Below, one piece after another: positions 4,858 to 16,226 of a stretch of 22,401 nucleotides of DNA (positions within the stretch are counted from its first letter, which is position 1; the number at the start of each line of letters is the position of its first letter). The DNA is taken from IMG/VR virus record IMGVR_UViG_3300025168_000743, positions 1 to 22,401 of that record. One strand, given 5' to 3'. The stretch comes from a virus. Below the pieces are notes generated by a model. It saw only the letters and a list, made by a program, of their open reading frames with translations, did no database searches and was not told the DNA's origin. A program made the position numbers and the translations under genes.

Positions 4858-5475
4858 TTAATAAAGTTTAGTTGGTTTCATTCTCGCCATTCCACCACCA
4901 CGAGCTTTAACCATGCTTCCTTTGTTAAGTAAAGGTTTATCAAATGTAAATCCGAACAAACCTGGATTTTTCTTAGTACTTTTTTTAGATACTGTATTTC
5001 TTTTTAACGCTCTTTTACTTTTCATTGCAGATGCATATTCTTTTTTATTAGCATAAGTTTTTCCACCTGATGAAATTTTACCATCTGATAAAACATTAAT
5101 CGCTTTTGGATTTAACTCACTAACTTTTTTTCCACCTTGATAAATTCCTACTTTTTTACCAGAGGATACATCTGTATTTACAAATTTAGTTTTAGTATTT
5201 CCGACTCCAGTGTTAACACCATCTTTAATAACATCTCCTGTGCTAGTAACTTTTAGTCTTGGAAAAGTTTTTTTAGTAGTTAATTTTTTTGTTGGACCAA
5301 CAGCTTTTTTAAATTTATTTGGGCTATATGCTTTATCTGAAGTAAATAAACTTTTTGATGAACCACTTGCACCTGTCGGGATACCTTTGCCTCCTAGCAT
5401 TCCTAACTTAGATGCACCAAATAATGCAGCACCCGCTAGAAGCATCTTATTTCGTCTTCTTGATTTTTTTGACAT
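4858..5475 (-). CDS. Basic RGGG-motif protein between terminase and portal
   Basis: A 205-residue, very Lys-rich protein. It begins with a basic cluster (MSKKSRRRNK) and a short hydrophobic stretch (residues 11-27, MLLAGAALFGASKLGML) that could be a membrane segment or signal-like helix. A polar repetitive body rich in Lys, Gly, Ser and Thr follows, and it ends KARGGGMARMKPTKLY. The tail resembles that of the 245-residue protein on the other side of the portal. The start is supported by a strong ribosome-binding site (AGGAG seven bases before the ATG). It sits 14 bases after the large terminase. Possible roles are DNA-binding or minor virion protein; function unknown. Confidence 0.7.
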   Translation of the reverse strand: MSKKSRRRNKMLLAGAALFGASKLGMLGGKGIPTGASGSSKSLFTSDKAYSPNKFKKAVGPTKKLTTKKTFPRLKVTSTGDVIKDGVNTGVGNTKTKFVNTDVSSGKKVGIYQGGKKVSELNPKAINVLSDGKISSGGKTYANKKEYASAMKSKRALKRNTVSKKSTKKNPGLFGFTFDKPLLNKGSMVKARGGGMARMKPTKLY

Positions 5476-5489
5476 GTCTTTTCTCCTAA

Positions 5490-6974
5490 TTAATAATATA
5501 CGTATTTACGTTCTTTATAACTTTCGACCTCATCCTCGTCAGAATAAGTAGTTACGAAAGAACCTTGTCGATATCTTAACATAGCTTGGGTAGTGCTGTC
5601 CACATAATCGTCATGTTCTCCGTGAGGAAACGCAGCACACTCTTCAATCACTTCTTGAGCCCAATGTTCGTCCCTTGGATAATATACTTGTTTAGATTCA
5701 AATATAGGAGAACAGGCGTTGACCCGTGAGTGTTTGTCCTGGCCTCTTCCTGGAGTGTAATCCATAACAGGGATACCCATTCGTCTTAATTCTTGTAATA
5801 AACTTTGTCCACTTGCTTTAGCTTCAATTACAATTGTCTCTGGCTGCCAATATTTGTATTGGTCTAAGGCTACCATTTTTAATTCTGGAAAATCCCATTT
5901 ACCTTTTACGGCATCAATTAACATAATAGCATCAGGCATGGATTCGTGAGGCGTGAATACTCCCCATGTAGTAATGGCTGAGTAATCGGCAGTTTCTTTT
6001 TTACTGAATGCAGTGTCATAAGATTGAATAACATGTTTTAACGTAGGAAGATCCTCGGTCCACGGCTGCCACCATTCTCTTTTAAGAATTGCTCCTTCCT
6101 CTGAAGTTGGATTTTGCATGTACTGTGCAGACCAATTTCTAATTGATATGGACGCTTTAACTTTTTCTAGTTCTTCTAGGTTCCAATATTCAGGCCACAC
6201 GGGCTGTACGTTGTCATCTTCCCCTAATAAAGCTGGAAAAGAAATTGTTTCCCATTGATCTGACTTAGGTTCATTTTGTGATTTAATTAATCGACCCGTT
6301 AAATCATCTTGAGCCCATCTTGTCATTACAAGTACAATAGAGCCTCCAGGTTGTAGACGTTGTCTGGGACCCGATAAGTACCAATCAAAAGTTCTCTCCA
6401 TTGCACTATCGGACATTGAGTCTTGTTCCGTGTGTGGGTCATCAATAATAAGTAAGTCCGCCCCTCGTCCTGTGATAGAACCGCCAACACCCGCTGCAAA
6501 ATATTCCCCACCTTGATTGGTCTCCCAACGTCCTTTTGCCTTACTATCTTCTCTTAGTCTAACATCTCCAAAGATCTGTTTATACTCCGCACTGTCAATT
6601 AAGTTTCTTACCTTCGCACCGAACCTTCCTGAAAGTTCTGCGTTGTGGGATACCTGCATAATTTTCATCTTAGGATTCTTTCCAATCATCCAAGCAGGAA
6701 AGTATATGGATGCAAATTCTGATTTAGTATGACGGGGTGGCATATTAACAATGAGCCTCCCTTTTTTATTTTTTGATATGTTAGTAAACTCGTGAGCAAT
6801 GTGTTGGTGATGGCCCCACTTATCAGGATTACTATCAGTTCTACAAATAAAATCTGGCCAAACATTCTTTACAAAATACAAGAAGTTGTCCTGACATAAT
6901 TTTATATGTTTTAACCATACTTTTTCGAGCCTCTCTCGTAATTGATCGGTGGTCAATAAATCTGTATCAGTCAT
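5490..6974 (-). CDS. terL: Terminase large subunit (packaging ATPase and nuclease)
   Basis: A 494-residue large terminase, which cuts concatemeric phage DNA and pumps it through the portal into the prohead. The ATPase domain has a variant Walker A, MPPRHTKSE (78-86), Walker B LLIIDD (174-179) and the coupling motif VMTRW (216-220). The RNase H-like nuclease domain has acidic residues at D320 (SYDTAFS), E384 (IVIEAKASG) and D456/D459 (HDDYVDS). Length and motifs are complete. The ATG is in a weak context with no clear ribosome-binding site. Upstream lies a 222-base non-coding stretch with dyad repeats that probably holds the late promoter. The small terminase is not adjacent but about 5.6 kb upstream. 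Confidence 0.95.
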   Translation of the reverse strand: MTDTDLLTTDQLRERLEKVWLKHIKLCQDNFLYFVKNVWPDFICRTDSNPDKWGHHQHIAHEFTNISKNKKGRLIVNMPPRHTKSEFASIYFPAWMIGKNPKMKIMQVSHNAELSGRFGAKVRNLIDSAEYKQIFGDVRLREDSKAKGRWETNQGGEYFAAGVGGSITGRGADLLIIDDPHTEQDSMSDSAMERTFDWYLSGPRQRLQPGGSIVLVMTRWAQDDLTGRLIKSQNEPKSDQWETISFPALLGEDDNVQPVWPEYWNLEELEKVKASISIRNWSAQYMQNPTSEEGAILKREWWQPWTEDLPTLKHVIQSYDTAFSKKETADYSAITTWGVFTPHESMPDAIMLIDAVKGKWDFPELKMVALDQYKYWQPETIVIEAKASGQSLLQELRRMGIPVMDYTPGRGQDKHSRVNACSPIFESKQVYYPRDEHWAQEVIEECAAFPHGEHDDYVDSTTQAMLRYRQGSFVTTYSDEDEVESYKERKYVYY

Positions 6975-7196
6975 CTATATTTACTATACCCTCGGGTCCC
7001 CTTAAAATCTACCCCCTAATTCTACAGGGCCTTACTACCTGTATCTGTCATACAAGTTTTAGTAAAAGTGTATAAAGTTTAAAAAATTTAAGTTTTTACA
7101 AATATAATTTGTAAATTTCAAATTTTGGAATTTGGTTGGTACCTCTATCAATAGGCAAGCCACACGCCCCACGTGGGGCGTGTGTTGTTAGATTAA
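6975..7196 (-). promoter_or_regulatory. Non-coding region upstream of the virion operon, with two dyads
   Basis: No credible gene is visible here. The stretch is very AT-rich in its centre and holds a perfect 9-base inverted repeat with a 3-base spacer (TTTACAAAT arms, 7095-7115), which looks like an operator. It also holds a GC-rich perfect palindrome at 7161-7184. It precedes the large terminase gene and the whole virion block, so it is the natural place for a late promoter, but no convincing -35/-10 pair could be picked. The function is inferred from position. Confidence 0.4.
7161..7184. terminator. 24-base perfect GC-rich palindrome, possible terminator
   Basis: A perfect 24-base palindrome with half-site CACACGCCCCAC. 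It lies 12 bases after the stop of the 90-residue gene on the minus strand. It can fold into a stable hairpin of about 10 base pairs and is the most GC-rich element in an AT-rich gap. There is no U-tract directly after it on either strand, so a classic intrinsic terminator is not proven. A protein-binding palindrome is the alternative. Confidence 0.45.
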
Positions 7197-7469
7197 TTAA
7201 CTTTTAATCTCTTCTTTAATTAATTGGTCTATATGATCGTAAATTAATTTATCTAGATCCGATAAATTTAATCCATGGCTCAAGGGTTTTGAAATTACTT
7301 TGTCCCCCTTCTCTAATTCATATTGAAAGTGACTACCATAATTGAGCCGTCTTATATCAAGTCTAATACATAAGAAAACATATATAGTATAACCTCTATG
7401 ATGTTTAATCGATCCGACTTGTATTTTTTTAACTTTGTCCGATGGTATAAACTTTTTAGACTCATCCAT
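7197..7469 (-). CDS. Hypothetical 90-residue protein
   Basis: A charged soluble protein with no recognised domain. It has a likely beta-rich middle (GYTIYVFLCIRLDIRR, about residues 26-41) and a helical end rich in Asp, Leu, Ile and Lys. The ATG has a ribosome-binding site (GAGGG, eight bases upstream) embedded in the end of the upstream 50-residue membrane gene, two bases after whose stop it starts. It is the last gene of a three-gene set (7953 down to 7197) before the long palindrome. Function unknown. Confidence 0.65.
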   Translation of the reverse strand: MDESKKFIPSDKVKKIQVGSIKHHRGYTIYVFLCIRLDIRRLNYGSHFQYELEKGDKVISKPLSHGLNLSDLDKLIYDHIDQLIKEEIKS

Positions 7470-7471
7470 TG

Positions 7472-7624
7472 TTAAGCCCTCACCATAGTTCTAATTGATA
7501 AGATAATGCCACCCGTGGACAGGAAAAAACCTGTCCACGGGTCAACCGTAAATAATATAATCACACCTAAAAAAGCAATCATAAAACTTATTACGATTAA
7601 AAATATATGTAATGCAAGATCCAT
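7472..7624 (-). CDS. Small (50-residue) two-segment membrane protein
   Basis: A short frame between two accepted genes. Its ATG overlaps the upstream gene's stop in a TAATG junction, and its TAA ends two bases before the next ATG. The product begins MDLALHIFLIVISFMIAFLG. It has one clear membrane segment (about residues 4-26), a turn VDPWTG at 27-32, a second weaker segment (33-43) and a basic end. An internal perfect hairpin (7511-7542) lies over codons 28-38. Hydrophobic pattern and tight junctions support a real gene. Function unknown; a holin-like or membrane-modifying peptide is possible. Confidence 0.6.
   Translation of the reverse strand: MDLALHIFLIVISFMIAFLGVIILFTVDPWTGFFLSTGGIILSIRTMVRA
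7511..7542 (-). repeat. Perfect 13-bp inverted repeat inside a coding sequence
   Basis: Arms ACCCGTGGACAGG and CCTGTCCACGGGT are separated by six bases (A-only on the plus strand). The arms are perfectly complementary and GC-rich, so the mRNA should fold a very stable hairpin within the 50-residue membrane-protein gene. It could act as an attenuator, an RNA-processing site or an RNA-stability element for the downstream 90-residue gene. The role is inference; the repeat itself is directly visible. Confidence 0.75.
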
Positions 7625-7953
7625 TATATTTTAACTGCGTTAACTTCAAGCGTTATAGAATTAACAACCTTAGTTTTATATTGATCATATAATTTAGGGT
7701 GATCTTCCTGCAATCTTTTAAGGTCGATCGTGTTATATTCTTTGTGTTTTGTTTGGGCGTGGACATTGTAACCTTTACAATGTGTAAAGACTTGACCACC
7801 TAAAGCATCGACAATAGTAACTGCAGGATCTTTAAGATCTATAGTTAATTTTGTAAACGCTTTTTTCTTTTTGTTAGCGTCAAAATAATTAAATAAAAGT
7901 TTACTTTGTAAAGTAGACAAATTATCTAATTTGGCTTTTTTAAGTGTACTCAT
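7624..7953 (-). CDS. Hypothetical 109-residue basic protein
   Basis: A Lys-rich soluble protein, probably an alpha/beta fold, with no motif I recognise. It has one Cys (FTHCKGYNVHAQTKHKEYN, about residues 56-74) in a His/Lys-rich stretch. The ATG is preceded by a weak but usable ribosome-binding site (GAGG, seven bases upstream). It is the first gene of a three-gene set that ends at the 7161-7184 palindrome. The upstream 100 bases have inverted repeats and a TATAAT-like element, so it is probably transcribed from its own promoter. Function unknown. Confidence 0.7.
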   Translation of the reverse strand: MSTLKKAKLDNLSTLQSKLLFNYFDANKKKKAFTKLTIDLKDPAVTIVDALGGQVFTHCKGYNVHAQTKHKEYNTIDLKRLQEDHPKLYDQYKTKVVNSITLEVNAVKI

Positions 7954-7972
7954 TTTTTTACCTCGTTTGTTA

Positions 7973-8011
7973 ATTATATATAACTTATGTTATATCTCCC
8001 ATTAATAAGGG
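7973..8011 (-). promoter_or_regulatory. Candidate operator/promoter with inverted repeats
   Basis: A TATAAT hexamer (minus strand, 7973-7978) is overlapped by an inverted repeat with arms ATATAAC/GTTATAT (7978-7995). An imperfect GGGAGATAT/ATATCCC dyad follows further upstream. No good -35 is seen. Position before the 109-residue gene suggests a regulated promoter. Evidence is weak because AT-rich sequence produces such patterns easily. Confidence 0.3.
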
Positions 8012-8053
8012 ATATAAAAAGATATGTAAAGAAAAAGATTTATTTAATTTAAT

Positions 8054-8082
8054 ACAACGCCAGGTTGTGTTCCTGGCGTTGT
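8054..8082. terminator. 11-bp perfect hairpin, likely terminator
   Basis: Arms ACAACGCCAGG and CCTGGCGTTGT are perfectly complementary with a seven-base loop. It lies 16 bases past the stop of the 28-residue gene, at the end of the 9058-to-8098 gene set, so it is well placed as a terminator. The minus-strand sequence after it is AT-rich but has no uninterrupted U-tract. Confidence 0.5.
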
Positions 8083-8097
8083 TAGTTTAGAACGGTT

Positions 8098-8184
8098 CTA
8101 AATGTATATTGCAATAAACAATATAAAAAGAAATAACCACGGGATAGCCATTTTTAAGATAAATTTTAAAAGGTCCTCAATCAT
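8098..8184 (-). CDS. 28-residue single-pass membrane peptide
   Basis: A very short frame whose ATG overlaps the stop of the Gp88-like gene (ATGA at 8181-8184) and whose TAG is followed closely by a hairpin. The product starts MIEDLLKFILKM and then has a single continuous hydrophobic segment to its end (AIPWLFLFILFIAIYI). The ribosome-binding site is weak, so coupling is likely. Chance is a real possibility at this length, but the junction and the uniform membrane pattern argue for a gene. Confidence 0.45.
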   Translation of the reverse strand: MIEDLLKFILKMAIPWLFLFILFIAIYI

Positions 8185-8885
8185 GACGCAATCTTAATAA
8201 AAGAATTTGTCTCGACCTTTTTTCCTAAGCCCTTAGCAACTAAGCCCACAATCACGCCCCTCGGATCCTTAAACCTTAAGTCATGTTTATCACCGTCAAT
8301 GACTTTCCGACTCATCCATTTTGACGGCAGCTTATCCTTGAAAACTACGGCAACGTTTGAATAGTATTTAGTCATCGCTTCAACTTGATCTTTATAATTA
8401 GAACCCGAGTCGCTAAACGTGACATGATAATTTTTTTTATCATGATCAAGATAATTTAAAACTTTGGTATAATCATAAAATTGAACATCTGGGTGAAGAT
8501 CCATAAGAGAGCCACCACCATCAACTTTATATTTAAAAAAGGGCAAATCACTGGTGCCGTTTAATCTAACGGCAAATTTGAAACCGTCCCGAGCTGCCCT
8601 CTTCTTTAATAGCCCGATCTCGTTTGATAATTCATAAAGAAAACCGTTTTTATTATTCCAGAAATAATTGGTTTTATTTATTCTGGCCTGTTGCACCGAA
8701 TTCATTTGTCCACGGCCTGAAGTATTTAAACAGGGCGCAATGCATCCACCAGGACCTTTAGTAGCTTTTGGACAAACATTTTTTCCACTCATATTGTAGG
8801 GGGCAAAATGTAAGATAGCTGTTTTATATCCAAACGCTTCACCCTTAGCCATTTTGGTTTGACTGTAGTAATTTAATAGTGCCAT
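8181..8885 (-). CDS. Gp88-like conserved phage protein with Cys motif
   Basis: A 234-residue protein that I recognise as the phage 'gene product 88' type. It has a conserved region VCPKATKGPGGCIAPCLNTS (about residues 37-56) with three Cys in C-x9-C-x3-C spacing. Further on are RLNGTSD (about 108-114), FYDYTK (about 137-142) and a VTFSDSGSN stretch (about 156-164). The catalytic role of the family is, to my knowledge, not established. The Cys cluster could bind a metal or iron-sulfur cluster, and the FYDYTK-containing part could be barrel-like, but this is inference. The start overlaps the preceding 57-residue gene's stop (TAATG) and has a strong ribosome-binding site (AGGGGGTG). Composition is somewhat richer in GC than its neighbours. 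Confidence 0.7.
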   Translation of the reverse strand: MALLNYYSQTKMAKGEAFGYKTAILHFAPYNMSGKNVCPKATKGPGGCIAPCLNTSGRGQMNSVQQARINKTNYFWNNKNGFLYELSNEIGLLKKRAARDGFKFAVRLNGTSDLPFFKYKVDGGGSLMDLHPDVQFYDYTKVLNYLDHDKKNYHVTFSDSGSNYKDQVEAMTKYYSNVAVVFKDKLPSKWMSRKVIDGDKHDLRFKDPRGVIVGLVAKGLGKKVETNSFIKIAS

Positions 8886-9058
8886 TATTCACCCCCTTCG
8901 ATTATTTTTTTTAAATCTTTAAGATCTGCTGCATCATCACAGAAGTCGCTGCGACTCAGTCCGAGCCCTGCAGCCTTCATTGCTTCTGATGCATCCTTCT
9001 CAGTCCACGGTTTATTGGCTGGCCATCCGCTGGGCGTTTTTATATTTTTTTTAGTCAT
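8885..9058 (-). CDS. Hypothetical 57-residue protein
   Basis: A short frame with a good ribosome-binding site (AAGGA, nine bases before the ATG), ending in a TAATG overlap with the Gp88-like gene. The product has a Trp/Pro-rich start (TPSGWPANKPWTEKDA, residues 8-23) and an acidic, probably helical end (SDFCDDAADLKDLKKIIEGG). It is the first gene after a promoter-like element at 9092-9120. Function unknown, but the pairing with the Gp88-like gene suggests they work together. Confidence 0.65.
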   Translation of the reverse strand: MTKKNIKTPSGWPANKPWTEKDASEAMKAAGLGLSRSDFCDDAADLKDLKKIIEGGE

Positions 9059-9091
9059 TTTTTTTATTCCTTTTTAGTTAGTTAATAAATC

Positions 9092-9120
9092 TTATTAAGG
9101 CGGGATGATTTTAAAGTCAA
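9092..9120 (-). promoter_or_regulatory. Sigma70-like promoter for the Gp88-like operon
   Basis: On the minus strand, TTGACT (9115-9120) and TAATAA (9092-9097) are separated by 17 bases, close to a standard housekeeping promoter. The expected start of transcription is about 30 bases before the ATG at 9058, leaving room for its ribosome-binding site. This is one of the better promoter matches in the window. Confidence 0.55.
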
Positions 9121-9229
9121 CTATTATTTAAATTAAATTTTAGCTGCCATGAGCTGCCACGGTTAACGGGACCAATTTAAAAAAATAAATTTTTTTAAAT
9201 ATTAGTAGTAGTAACAAAGCACCAAAAAA

Positions 9230-9309
9230 GACATGGTAAAAGTTTAGGAACCTCGCACGTATAGTATAAGGGGGCAAACGTAAAATATGACATGGCAAAA
9301 GTTTAGTAA
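9230..9309 (-). repeat. Two imperfect direct repeats with AAAGTTTAG core
   Basis: Copies at 9230-9250 and 9289-9309, starts 59 bases apart, share 19 of 21 bases around ACATGG-Y-AAAAGTTTAG. On the transcribed (minus) strand the core reads TTNCTAAACTTT. The same core occurs twice more at 12350-12400, also upstream of a minus-strand gene. A shared regulator site or phage promoter element is likely. Confidence 0.6.
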
Positions 9310-9324
9310 TAGTAAACCAATCAT

Positions 9325-9346
9325 AAAAATCGCATAGGCGATTTTT
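9325..9346. terminator. Short bidirectional intrinsic terminator-like hairpin
   Basis: Perfect arms AAAAATCGC and GCGATTTTT flank a four-base loop. The A/T ends make it U-tailed on both strands. It is 40 bases past the stop of the VRR-NUC-like gene, a good position for termination on the minus strand. The GC part of the stem is short, so strength is probably modest. Confidence 0.5.
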
Positions 9347-9385
9347 AGCGATATGGTTTTAGTATCGTGAAGCGTGAGAATTGGT

Positions 9386-9751
9386 TCAAGCGTCTTGAAT
9401 TTTTTTCATTGCATCTTTTAAATTAAGTGATGAGTAGGCATGAACCAAGGTTCTCGGCTCACGGATCACGAAAATTTGTAATTCTGAGGAGGTTCCCTGC
9501 GAGAGTGTCTCTCGCAAGATAAATGATTGTCCACCATTTTTAAAATGGGTCAAATGCCAATTGATTTGGTACTTAGATAAACCTAAATTCTTGACATCAT
9601 TTGACTTGAGTTCAATCCAAATACTTTTGTTATTTATCAACCAATAAACGTCTGGAATTCCATTAATAGTGTTACTTTCAATACGGAATAATTGACCTTT
9701 TAACTTAAGAGATTTAATTCGTTTCCATAAATTACTTTCAGATTTTTTCAT
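9386..9751 (-). CDS. VRR-NUC-like PD-(D/E)XK nuclease
   Basis: A 121-residue protein with the signature of small phage VRR-NUC nucleases: RIESNTINGIPDVYWL (residues 23-38) with the catalytic Asp D34, WIELKS with E47 and K49, and LSKYQINWH with Q62. An N-terminal Glu (E5) may complete the site. Such stand-alone domains are thought to cut branched DNA (junction resolution) during replication or packaging, but this one's target is not known. No ribosome-binding site is visible before the ATG. Instead a 7-bp inverted repeat (9753-9773) and a terminator-like hairpin (9774-9810) sit directly upstream, which suggests controlled expression. Length fits the family. Confidence 0.78.
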   Translation of the reverse strand: MKKSESNLWKRIKSLKLKGQLFRIESNTINGIPDVYWLINNKSIWIELKSNDVKNLGLSKYQINWHLTHFKNGGQSFILRETLSQGTSSELQIFVIREPRTLVHAYSSLNLKDAMKKIQDA

Positions 9752-15007: not shown

Positions 15008-15292
15008 TTATTTTTTACGTCTAAGGTATCTTTTTAAAATATAATTAATTAAGTCTAAAGCTTTAGAAGATTGTTCGTATCTTAAATACATATTCTTCCA
15101 ACCAGGTCTTACCTTCATTCTATCTCTAACAAATTTATCTCTTCTGTTAGCTGCTTGTTGTCTTTTCTCTAAACCTAAATATATTTTGCCAATCGGATTG
15201 TATTGTTCCCATAGATCAATAGCAACTGAGTTGACATCTAGCCAACGACCAACCTTTTTTATTTTATTTATTTTTAAAAGATTAACTTTCAT
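15008..15292 (-). CDS. Hypothetical 94-residue strongly basic protein
   Basis: Very rich in Lys and Arg throughout (for example KRQQAANRRDKFVRDRMKVR, about residues 43-62; final KRYLRRKK), which suggests nucleic-acid binding, though no domain is recognised. Its ATG lies within the last codons of the cytosine methyltransferase gene (11-base overlap). The overlap suggests coupled expression with the methyltransferase. Function unknown. Confidence 0.6.
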   Translation of the reverse strand: MKVNLLKINKIKKVGRWLDVNSVAIDLWEQYNPIGKIYLGLEKRQQAANRRDKFVRDRMKVRPGWKNMYLRYEQSSKALDLINYILKRYLRRKK

Positions 15293-16226
15293 TTAAAACT
15301 TTTTTGATTGCGAGTCCGAAGATTCTTGCCATTTGTGGAACGATTGCATTCCCTAAACTTTTTATTCTGTTGGCTCTATCTTTGTCCAATTCTCTGGAAA
15401 TCCCATTAGGAACTCCACAAAGGTCGGATTCAATTTGCCACCAGGTTCTATCGGTTGATTTACTTTGTTCACTACATCGTTCAACTTCGCTCCGAACTTG
15501 GTTCCAGTGCCAACCCTCGTTACACTCCAACCTGATGAGTTCTGCTTCACTGTCTCTGGTGGTGCTACTACATCCATCTGACAACTGGCCGATGGTGTTG
15601 GATACATCTTCATTGTTTCTGGATCCACTTGTTCTCTCAAGTTCGATGGTTTCGTTCTGCCCTTCCTGTGTCCTTCCATTAACTTCTTGGTTCCTGCTGC
15701 GCTTCTCGGTGGCAAGTAATCCATTGTGTTTGGAGTGGCCCACAATCCAGACTCTGAATCGTTGGTGCCAAGCACCGATGCCCGAAGCTGGTATAAGGAA
15801 ACATTGGACTTCGAAACCTTGACCAACCAAGTCATCTTGCACCTGTCTGAGGACCATGCCGTTTTGGAGGTTAACAAGTCCTTGCACATTCTCTCCAATA
15901 ACGAACTCGGGTTTGATTTCTTTAATGAGTCTAAACATTTCTGGCCAGAGGTATCGGTTGTCATCTCTTCCTTTTTGTTTACCTGCGACACTGAACGGTT
16001 GACATGGGAATCCTCCCACAATGATGTCTGCTTCGAATTCTCTTCCTCTGACATTTTTTATATCTCCTTCAATTGGTACGTTTGGATAATTCTTTTTTAA
16101 AATCTTTTGACAAAACTCATCAAACTCTACAAATTTAATTGTATCAAATATTCCTGTTGAGTGGAGGCCTAACGAGAAGCCTCCAATCCCAGAAAATAAA
16201 TCTAAAACTTTTAATTTATTTTCCAA
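15282..16226 (-). CDS. dcm: DNA (cytosine-5) methyltransferase
   Basis: A 314-residue C5-cytosine DNA methyltransferase with all main motifs. Motif I is DLFSGIGGFSLGL (9-21), motif IV is GGFPCQPFSVAG (71-82) with catalytic C75, motif VI contains GENVQG (about 111-116), and motif VIII is HQRFRVWIVG. The C-terminal motifs IX-X contain RIKSLGNAIVPQMARIFGLAI. A variable target-recognition stretch lies between VIII and IX. It would methylate cytosine in a specific site, commonly to protect phage DNA from host restriction; no partner nuclease is visible. The only in-frame start I can find is TTG (16224-16226), overlapping the upstream stop by 11 bases, with a weak ribosome-binding site. A second full-length gene is nested in its +1 frame. 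Confidence 0.9.
   Translation of the reverse strand: MENKLKVLDLFSGIGGFSLGLHSTGIFDTIKFVEFDEFCQKILKKNYPNVPIEGDIKNVRGREFEADIIVGGFPCQPFSVAGKQKGRDDNRYLWPEMFRLIKEIKPEFVIGENVQGLVNLQNGMVLRQVQDDLVGQGFEVQCFLIPASGIGAWHQRFRVWIVGHSKHNGLLATEKRSRNQEVNGRTQEGQNETIELERTSGSRNNEDVSNTIGQLSDGCSSTTRDSEAELIRLECNEGWHWNQVRSEVERCSEQSKSTDRTWWQIESDLCGVPNGISRELDKDRANRIKSLGNAIVPQMARIFGLAIKKVLNES
15362..16054 (-). CDS. Nested gene in the +1 frame of dcm, WxTP/LNPxxVExLMGFP family
   Basis: A 230-codon frame lying wholly inside the methyltransferase gene, same strand, +1 frame, over dcm residues 58-289. Its ATG has a textbook ribosome-binding site (GAAGGAG, nine bases upstream), better than that of dcm itself. The product has LWATPNTMD (104-112), a second YPTP element, and a C-terminal LNPTFVEFLMGFPENWT (208-224). 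I recognise this combination (W/Y-x-TP repeats, then LNPxxVExLMGFPxxW) from phage and bacterial proteins found next to or overlapping cytosine methyltransferase genes; this is recall, not a search. The central part KTAWSSDRCKMTW (64-76) also fits that family. Function unknown; a partner of the methyltransferase is possible. Other long open frames here could reflect stop-poor composition, hence the moderate confidence. Confidence 0.62.
   Translation of the reverse strand: MSEEENSKQTSLWEDSHVNRSVSQVNKKEEMTTDTSGQKCLDSLKKSNPSSLLERMCKDLLTSKTAWSSDRCKMTWLVKVSKSNVSLYQLRASVLGTNDSESGLWATPNTMDYLPPRSAAGTKKLMEGHRKGRTKPSNLREQVDPETMKMYPTPSASCQMDVVAPPETVKQNSSGWSVTRVGTGTKFGAKLNDVVNKVNQPIEPGGKLNPTFVEFLMGFPENWTKIEPTE

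Follow-up and report, generated by a model that had tools for sequence, protein, structure and literature searches.

A stem-loop under selection within the codons of a small membrane-protein gene in a relative of Pelagibacter phage HTVC023P

We report that a small phage gene for a predicted two-helix membrane protein carries, within the codons for the turn between its helices, an mRNA stem-loop that is under selection. The gene lies in a virus record of 22,401 bases (IMGVR_UViG_3300025168_000743; hereafter the window, by which we mean the entire stretch analysed). The terminase encoded in the window shares 91% identity with its counterpart in Pelagibacter phage HTVC023P, and the source virus is a relative of that phage, whose hosts are ocean bacteria. 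In most homologues of the gene a stem at or beside the turn, in one of several registers, is kept beyond what coding needs, and the stem-loop is a real, well-supported coding-region RNA element of a phage gene family. The gene carries two codes at once, in that the hairpin is kept by most relatives while both its letters and the protein change, and in this family the turn residues should not be taken as a record of constraint on the protein only.

RNA viruses are well known to conserve RNA structures within their coding sequences; for a DNA phage, coding-region compensatory change on this scale has, to our knowledge, seldom been shown. The change described here extends over dozens of contigs near HTVC023P, and the stem goes together with changes in the protein itself. 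The HTVC023P type has been called widespread in the available part of one paper (PMC9599517), where the words "hairpin", "terminator" and "promoter" do not occur, and none of the open-literature matches listed concerned a stem-loop within pelagiphage coding sequence. The element may bear on the way in which such phages fix the ratios of their proteins where genes are tightly packed and terminators are lacking.

The hairpin and the protein that it helps to encode

An earlier sequence-only reading of this DNA had described a 13-bp perfect inverted repeat with a six-base loop inside a 50-codon gene, and both parts of that description were borne out. The gene has an ATG start on the minus strand and homologues of 49-53 aa; the hairpin takes up codons 28-38, and its 13-nt arms are 100% complementary and lie 6 nt apart (Table 1). 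Among the 13 inverted repeats in the window with arms at most 40 nt apart, this one ranks first. The longest perfect stem in the window with a loop of 3-10 nt is the one of 13 bp, against 7-11 bp in 40 first-order Markov resamples, and the window has two GC-rich stems (>=11 bp, >=6 GC) where each of the 40 resamples has none. Likewise, the 153-nt ORF folds at -47.3 kcal/mol, compared with -28.8 kcal/mol (sd 3.5) for 200 dinucleotide shuffles, none of which was as good (z -5.25). Because of these comparisons with resampled and shuffled sequence, a chance origin of the stem itself is excluded. Against codons sampled according to the usage of the phage, with the protein unchanged, the turn region of the window stood at z -8.7 (about -9), the fraction of 3000 draws that were as stable being 0.000. 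Among the codons of the window's stem are CTG, TCC and ACG, which account for 2%, 6% and 6%, respectively, of those tallied for Leu, Ser and Thr. The exact arm sequences do not occur elsewhere in viral contigs, and the U6 loop is not conserved among relatives. (Note that the minus strand at 7534-7552 can also form an alternative stem of 7 pairs, followed by the U6 loop, that resembles a weak terminator and is exclusive with the main hairpin.)

Table 1. Positions in the window of the stem-loop and of neighbouring features, in the direction of transcription
Feature	Position	Strand	Remarks
Gene-boundary hairpin 1	8054-8082	-	11 bp, perfect, no U-tract; upstream of the 109-aa gene
Upstream 109-aa gene	7624-7953	-	Its stop and the 50-aa start overlap; weak PHROG hits only
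Two-helix membrane-protein ORF, 50 aa (predicted helices)	7472-7624	-	From the ORF list; homologues in 85 other records
5' arm of stem (mRNA sense)	7530-7542	-	13 nt; codons for D-P-W-T-G; pairing kept despite changes in homologues
Loop	7524-7529	-	Six U in the mRNA; 4-6 nt, of other sequence, in register 33 and 41 relatives
3' arm of stem	7511-7523	-	Codons for F-L-S-T-G
Shine-Dalgarno-like GAGGG for the next gene	7477-7481	-	In the last codons of the 50-aa ORF; read from the sequence
Downstream 90-aa gene	7197-7469	-	Starts 2 nt past the stop of the 50-aa ORF; other gene kinds in relatives
Gene-boundary hairpin 3	7161-7184	-	12-nt perfect inverted repeat, no sense U-tract; 12 nt past the 90-aa gene

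The predicted model of the 50-aa protein has helices at residues 3-26 and 29-49 with a tight turn between them (mean pLDDT 92.8), and the earlier suggestion that the codons of the hairpin also encode a sensible membrane turn is, on this model, a reasonable one. With its Gly, Thr, Pro and Trp codons, the turn may simply be where a hydrophobic ORF can hold a GC-rich stem. The protein has no family in Pfam, PHROGs or NCBIfam, a tblastn search against named phages gave no match (although the low-complexity filter may hide one), and a search of genome contigs confirmed no relative. The 51-aa homologue at L017:1804-1956 matched the Pfam two-transmembrane domain PF20712 below threshold (E 0.0025, short of the cut-off). 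Elsewhere in the window, a GP88 family protein (8181-8885; PF17338, E 4e-36) adjoins these genes, and a C5 cytosine DNA methyltransferase (PF00145, E 1.6e-49), with a TTG start in the ORF listing, lies at 15282-16226.

Pairing among homologues of the 50-aa gene

The 50-aa gene was found in 85 records beyond the window (73 together with 12 new contigs), and the resulting 86 contain 57 distinct turn sequences, 51 in the main set and six more, identical ones being counted once. One set of homologue queries consisted of patterns from the hairpin region and the others of patterns outside it; one of the latter re-found all 17 loci of the former. For all 57 sequences we compared the fold at the turn with a synonymous null, in which the protein is held fixed and codons follow the phage's own usage. 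In 48 of the 57 there is a strong stem-loop at the turn (z < -3), which lends strong support to the earlier idea that coding and structure constraints coincide here; the remaining nine lie between -1.3 and +0.7. In a scan across two ORFs, that of the window shows the signal at the turn only; that of L045 peaks at the turn and reaches -2.8 upstream as well.

The stem occurs in more than one register, which we define as the sum of the paired positions with bases counted from the Asp codon. Among the distinct sequences the sum is 33 in 33 and 41 in 13, and it is 37 in L017 and 55 in L085, where the stem is weaker. Stems in registers 33 and 41 are 9-14 bp long, with loops of 4-6 nt. Register classes were picked by the presence of a stem in that register, 29 by computation and four added by hand. 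In register 33 (32 distinct rows) pairing is 91%, falling to 26-45% when the partner is slid by 1-3 bases, and in register 41 (12 distinct rows) 99.4% of cells are paired, as against 35% when those rows are read in register 33; these percentages are partly circular, because the rows of a class were chosen for a stem in that register, which is not so for the synonymous null.

The compensatory changes in the arms that the sequence-only reading had suggested looking for in homologues were found by three approaches. First, in register 33, 39 cells at 6 of the 13 pairs are changed on both sides, and the covariation score is 0.401, compared with 0.224 in shuffled alignments (0/500 as high) and 0.02-0.11 when the partner is slid; in register 41 the score is 0.244 against 0.159 (0/500). 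Second, RNAalifold predicted 12 pairs of the stem for the register 33 class, 7 of them with two-sided changes. Third, reconstruction of register 33 on a tree gave 12 two-sided changes that keep a pair and 2 that break one, with 35 and 15, respectively, for one-sided changes; the tree, which holds 53 of the 57 sequences (L017, L085, L133 and L134 are out), is rough, being built on ~110 nt per sequence with no support test. Some of the paired changes alter the protein. In particular, where one arm replaces Thr by Leu or Ile, the other shows a synonymous Leu change, either by itself or accompanied by Ser to Ala.

Departures from Watson-Crick pairing in registers 33 and 41, read on the sense strand, comprise 38 to G.U and 4 to A.C, an imbalance that points to the mRNA as the likely target of selection. 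We regard this evidence of strand as moderate, because codon positions and constraints, as well as base composition, favour G.U over A.C too; in the eight sequences that lack a stem in register 33, 37 or 41, G.T exceeds A.C likewise (20:7, 44:2). By z, the sense fold beats the antisense fold in 35 of 48 sequences and the antisense wins in 13 of 48, the antisense strand thus folding too.

Nine distinct sequences (L006, L013, L015, L054, L062, L066, L041, L133 and L134) have no turn hairpin. The pattern that the sequence-only reading had named as its refutation, the protein kept and the pairing lost, therefore does occur for the turn hairpin in 9 of the 57; five of these nine have instead a shifted 11-bp stem upstream. 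The first six of the nine cluster together in the tree, and in each of that group except L015 z falls to its minimum (-3.1 to -5.6) at a single site a little upstream of the turn. The shifted stem has a 16-nt loop and 94% of its cells paired over six rows, compared with 32-48% when slid, a figure that is not separated from shuffles (212/500 on cells paired, 45/500 on covariation). At or near the turn of L015, L041, L133 and L134 there is no significant stem. L041 stands for four identical records (L041-L044), and L041, L133 and L134 adjoin the next gene yet have no significant stem. Five sequences were inspected for a U-tract terminator after the ORF, which is present in L006, L013, L015 and L066 and absent after L054. 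The idea that a terminator replaces the stem when no gene abuts, which at first seemed likely, was weakened: L006, L013 and L066 carry a terminator plus the shifted stem, so stem and terminator are not simple substitutes.

The gene junction and candidate roles of the stem

In the window the stem spans 82-113 nt past the stop of the upstream 109-aa gene. In most records the order is a boundary hairpin, a gene of ~110 aa, the 50-aa gene with its stem, a variable gene and a second boundary hairpin. Downstream, at 400-2902 nt, terL follows in 70 of 73 records; the remaining three are truncated at contig ends. The ~110-aa protein beside the same 50-aa gene is of several divergent types, and unrelated genes of several kinds follow the 50-aa gene. 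(Weak hits of the ~110-aa protein were to PHROGs 1956 and 6244 and to the end of a RecE-like exonuclease family, 434; in L031, upstream of 3001, its gene was not found whole, and a 55-aa ORF ends 190 nt upstream.) Hairpins matching the two boundary hairpins of Table 1 occur in related loci in 24 and 33 distinct sequences, respectively, with letters that differ between phages. In L046, L065 and L086 the gene that follows the 50-aa ORF has weaker internal stems of -13 to -16 kcal/mol (z -2.5 to -3.4) within 60 nt of its start.

Two familiar kinds of element were considered and rejected. The stem-loop is GC-rich, as in a Rho-independent terminator, and no U-tract lies directly past it on the sense strand; because the U-tract is lacking, we rule out a terminator of this kind. 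None of the 7 terminator-like sites at positions 5400-9400 is the 13-bp stem, and the 8 nt past the stem contain on average 3.2 T over 34 distinct stems (2.0 and 2.1 for the boundary stems; n = 24 and 33). A programmed frameshift signal was rejected because the offset of the next start from the stop varies between relatives, being -1, 0, +1, +2 or other values. In a search of Rfam there were no matches at the gathering score in the window, and at E up to 1 the region 7100-8200 gave two sub-threshold matches, neither of which covers 7511-7542.

Loci that lack the 50-aa gene were compared as well. In HTVC023P no such ORF follows the ~110-aa gene, and a 14-nt inverted repeat forms a stem 9 nt past it (of the 8 strong plus-strand stems in that phage, 7 are intergenic). 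In five contigs (L200, L201, L202, L020 and L024) the ~110-aa gene directly overlaps another gene. Three of them, L202 (1857-1886), L020 and L024, have a stem inside that next ORF, ~33-62 nt past the ~110-aa stop (z -7.0, -4.4 and -4.5), and may be a single case because the next gene and the stem are common to all three; L200 and L201 have no such stem, their best z values being -2.1 and -3.3, the latter weak and elsewhere. The notion that the stem belongs to the 50-aa gene alone, which L200 and L201 had suggested, was dropped, since L202, L020 and L024 have a stem without that gene. The sequence-only reading had proposed a regulatory or processing element acting on the downstream gene. Its first half remains the likeliest kind of element; its second half is less secure, the next genes being of several unrelated kinds, and an element of the upstream junction fits at least as well, because four of the six loci that lack the 50-aa gene have a stem shortly past the same upstream gene, three of them inside the next ORF.

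We put forward, tentatively and as the foremost of several candidates, that the stem is a cis-acting, ORF-internal RNA-end former or attenuator placed after the ~110-aa gene, in the manner of the galE hairpin of Escherichia coli, a reading suggested by an ORF-internal stem at a similar distance past the previous stop. On this proposal, 3'-to-5' exonucleases that enter from an end made downstream, by Rho termination or by an endonuclease, would be stopped by the stem, and polymerase pausing or RNase III cutting would perhaps contribute; a stem of 9-14 bp is close to the smallest that RNase III accepts. Some transcripts would then end just past the stem, ~115 nt after the ~110-aa stop and before the 50-aa stop, so that expression of the ~110-aa gene would be kept high while the full-length membrane protein and the product of the next gene would be held down.

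The stem might instead act on the next gene, by insulating its ribosome-binding site, by providing a stable 5' end of a processed message or by holding a terminating ribosome near the next start, a reading that we consider unlikely. The stem lies ~40 nt upstream of the next start and upstream of its Shine-Dalgarno-like motif, which falls within the last codons of the 50-aa ORF; such a motif (nine short motifs, a loose set) precedes the next start in 70 of 71 hairpin-bearing records scored and in 6 of 14 hairpin-less ones. Moreover, of 62 hairpin-bearing records, 61 have a next ORF whose start is at -14 to +2 relative to the stop (none was found in the 62nd, L002), whereas among 12 hairpin-less records the gap to the next ORF is 97-108 nt in six and 15 nt in two, and four of the six longer gaps, those inspected, contain a terminator. 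Against this, the following genes are unrelated in kind, L041-L044 abut the next gene with no significant stem, L200 and L201 overlap theirs with none, the stem of L202, L020 and L024 lies inside the next gene and not before its start, and the gap-bearing L006, L013, L054, L062 and L066 still show the shifted stem.

That the stem stays with the 50-aa gene whatever follows downstream, in or next to the turn, would also suit a brake on elongation, by which ribosomes slow between the two helices and so tune insertion or amount of the protein. We think this improbable: stems also follow the ~110-aa gene at loci without the 50-aa gene, a significant stem is lacking in four distinct homologues, and a ribosome stopped at the stem would have made only ~25 residues, which would still be inside the exit tunnel.

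An RNA that ends past the stem would have no stop codon, which raises a further reading, again an improbable one, in which the phage deliberately makes a non-stop mRNA, as for arfA and brfA, and the functional product is a truncated one-helix peptide under ribosome rescue. Both of those genes have ORF-internal stem-loops of this sort (PMC8012679, in the part available), and HTVC027P, a phage of the HTVC023P type, is reported in the available part of another paper to encode ArfA (PMC12753301). The part of the protein after the stem (GGIxLSIR...) is as conserved as the rest, even where the turn hairpin is lost, and for this reason the full-length protein seems to be needed; in addition, the 20 window proteins searched against Pfam include no ArfA match, and the stem lacks a U-tract. 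A bolder form of the idea, to which we likewise give little weight, is that a programmed fraction of messages ends inside the ORF to yield the non-stop one-helix peptide, dosing a harmful membrane protein in the course of infection, with the stem as the conserved feature and turn residues that change in pairs. If true, it would be a phage counterpart of arfA-type self-limitation, without a terminator or a known protein relative.

Still less probable is a structure that works as DNA, that is, a single-strand or cruciform hairpin used in replication, in recombination of shuffled genes or in packaging near the terminase gene. The mosaic nature of the surrounding genes, the proximity of terL and the good fold of the antisense strand are in keeping with it; the excess of G.U over A.C changes on the sense strand, unexpected for a cruciform, and the more frequently stronger sense fold are not, and the drift of register and sequence argues against a fixed protein site. 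Finally, although a Gly-bearing turn is common to all members, the synonymous null, the covariation and the change of register leave almost no room for a coding coincidence in which the protein turn happens to yield an inverted repeat.

Comparison with known systems

Rho-independent terminators resemble the phage stem in having a GC-rich stem and a short loop and differ from it in their U-tract; U-tract terminators are present elsewhere in the related phages. In the puf operon of Rhodobacter the hairpins lie between genes, where they confer segmental stability, whereas the phage stem is built into an ORF. Those hairpins shape the decay of the polycistronic message, according to the part of the source available (PMC7509114), and the stem-loop described here is proposed to act on message decay similarly.

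Another comparison is with arfA and brfA, whose ORF-internal stem-loops give rise to non-stop mRNA (PMC8012679, same part). Here too a stem-loop lies in a short ORF before its stop codon. Unlike those genes, the phage gene encodes a protein that shares no family with theirs, has no terminator U-tract and conserves the part after the stem; with no Pfam, PHROGs or NCBIfam hit and a two-helix model, the 50-aa protein does not present itself as a ribosome-rescue factor.

The nearest parallel is the galE hairpin of the E. coli gal operon, an 8-bp stem with a 4-nt loop situated within galT, where the RNA end lies ~120 nt past the galE stop (PMC11925234, in the part available). In that available account the hairpin blocks exonucleases and sets the RNA end that gives polarity, as tested with mutants. 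The two elements are alike in being stem-loops inside the following gene at a comparable distance from the previous stop: a galE-type element would be expected ~110-120 nt past that stop, and the phage stem, at 82-113 nt, has its foot at 113 nt. Extending the galE case to junctions that lack the 50-aa gene, we find a stem in HTVC023P, L202, L020 and L024 and none in L200 and L201. For galE, the 3' ends, the exonuclease block and the polarity have been demonstrated, as far as the available text goes, whereas the phage element is known from comparison of genomes; conversely, the phage stem sits within a gene of just 50 codons, and its covariation is shown here over many phages.
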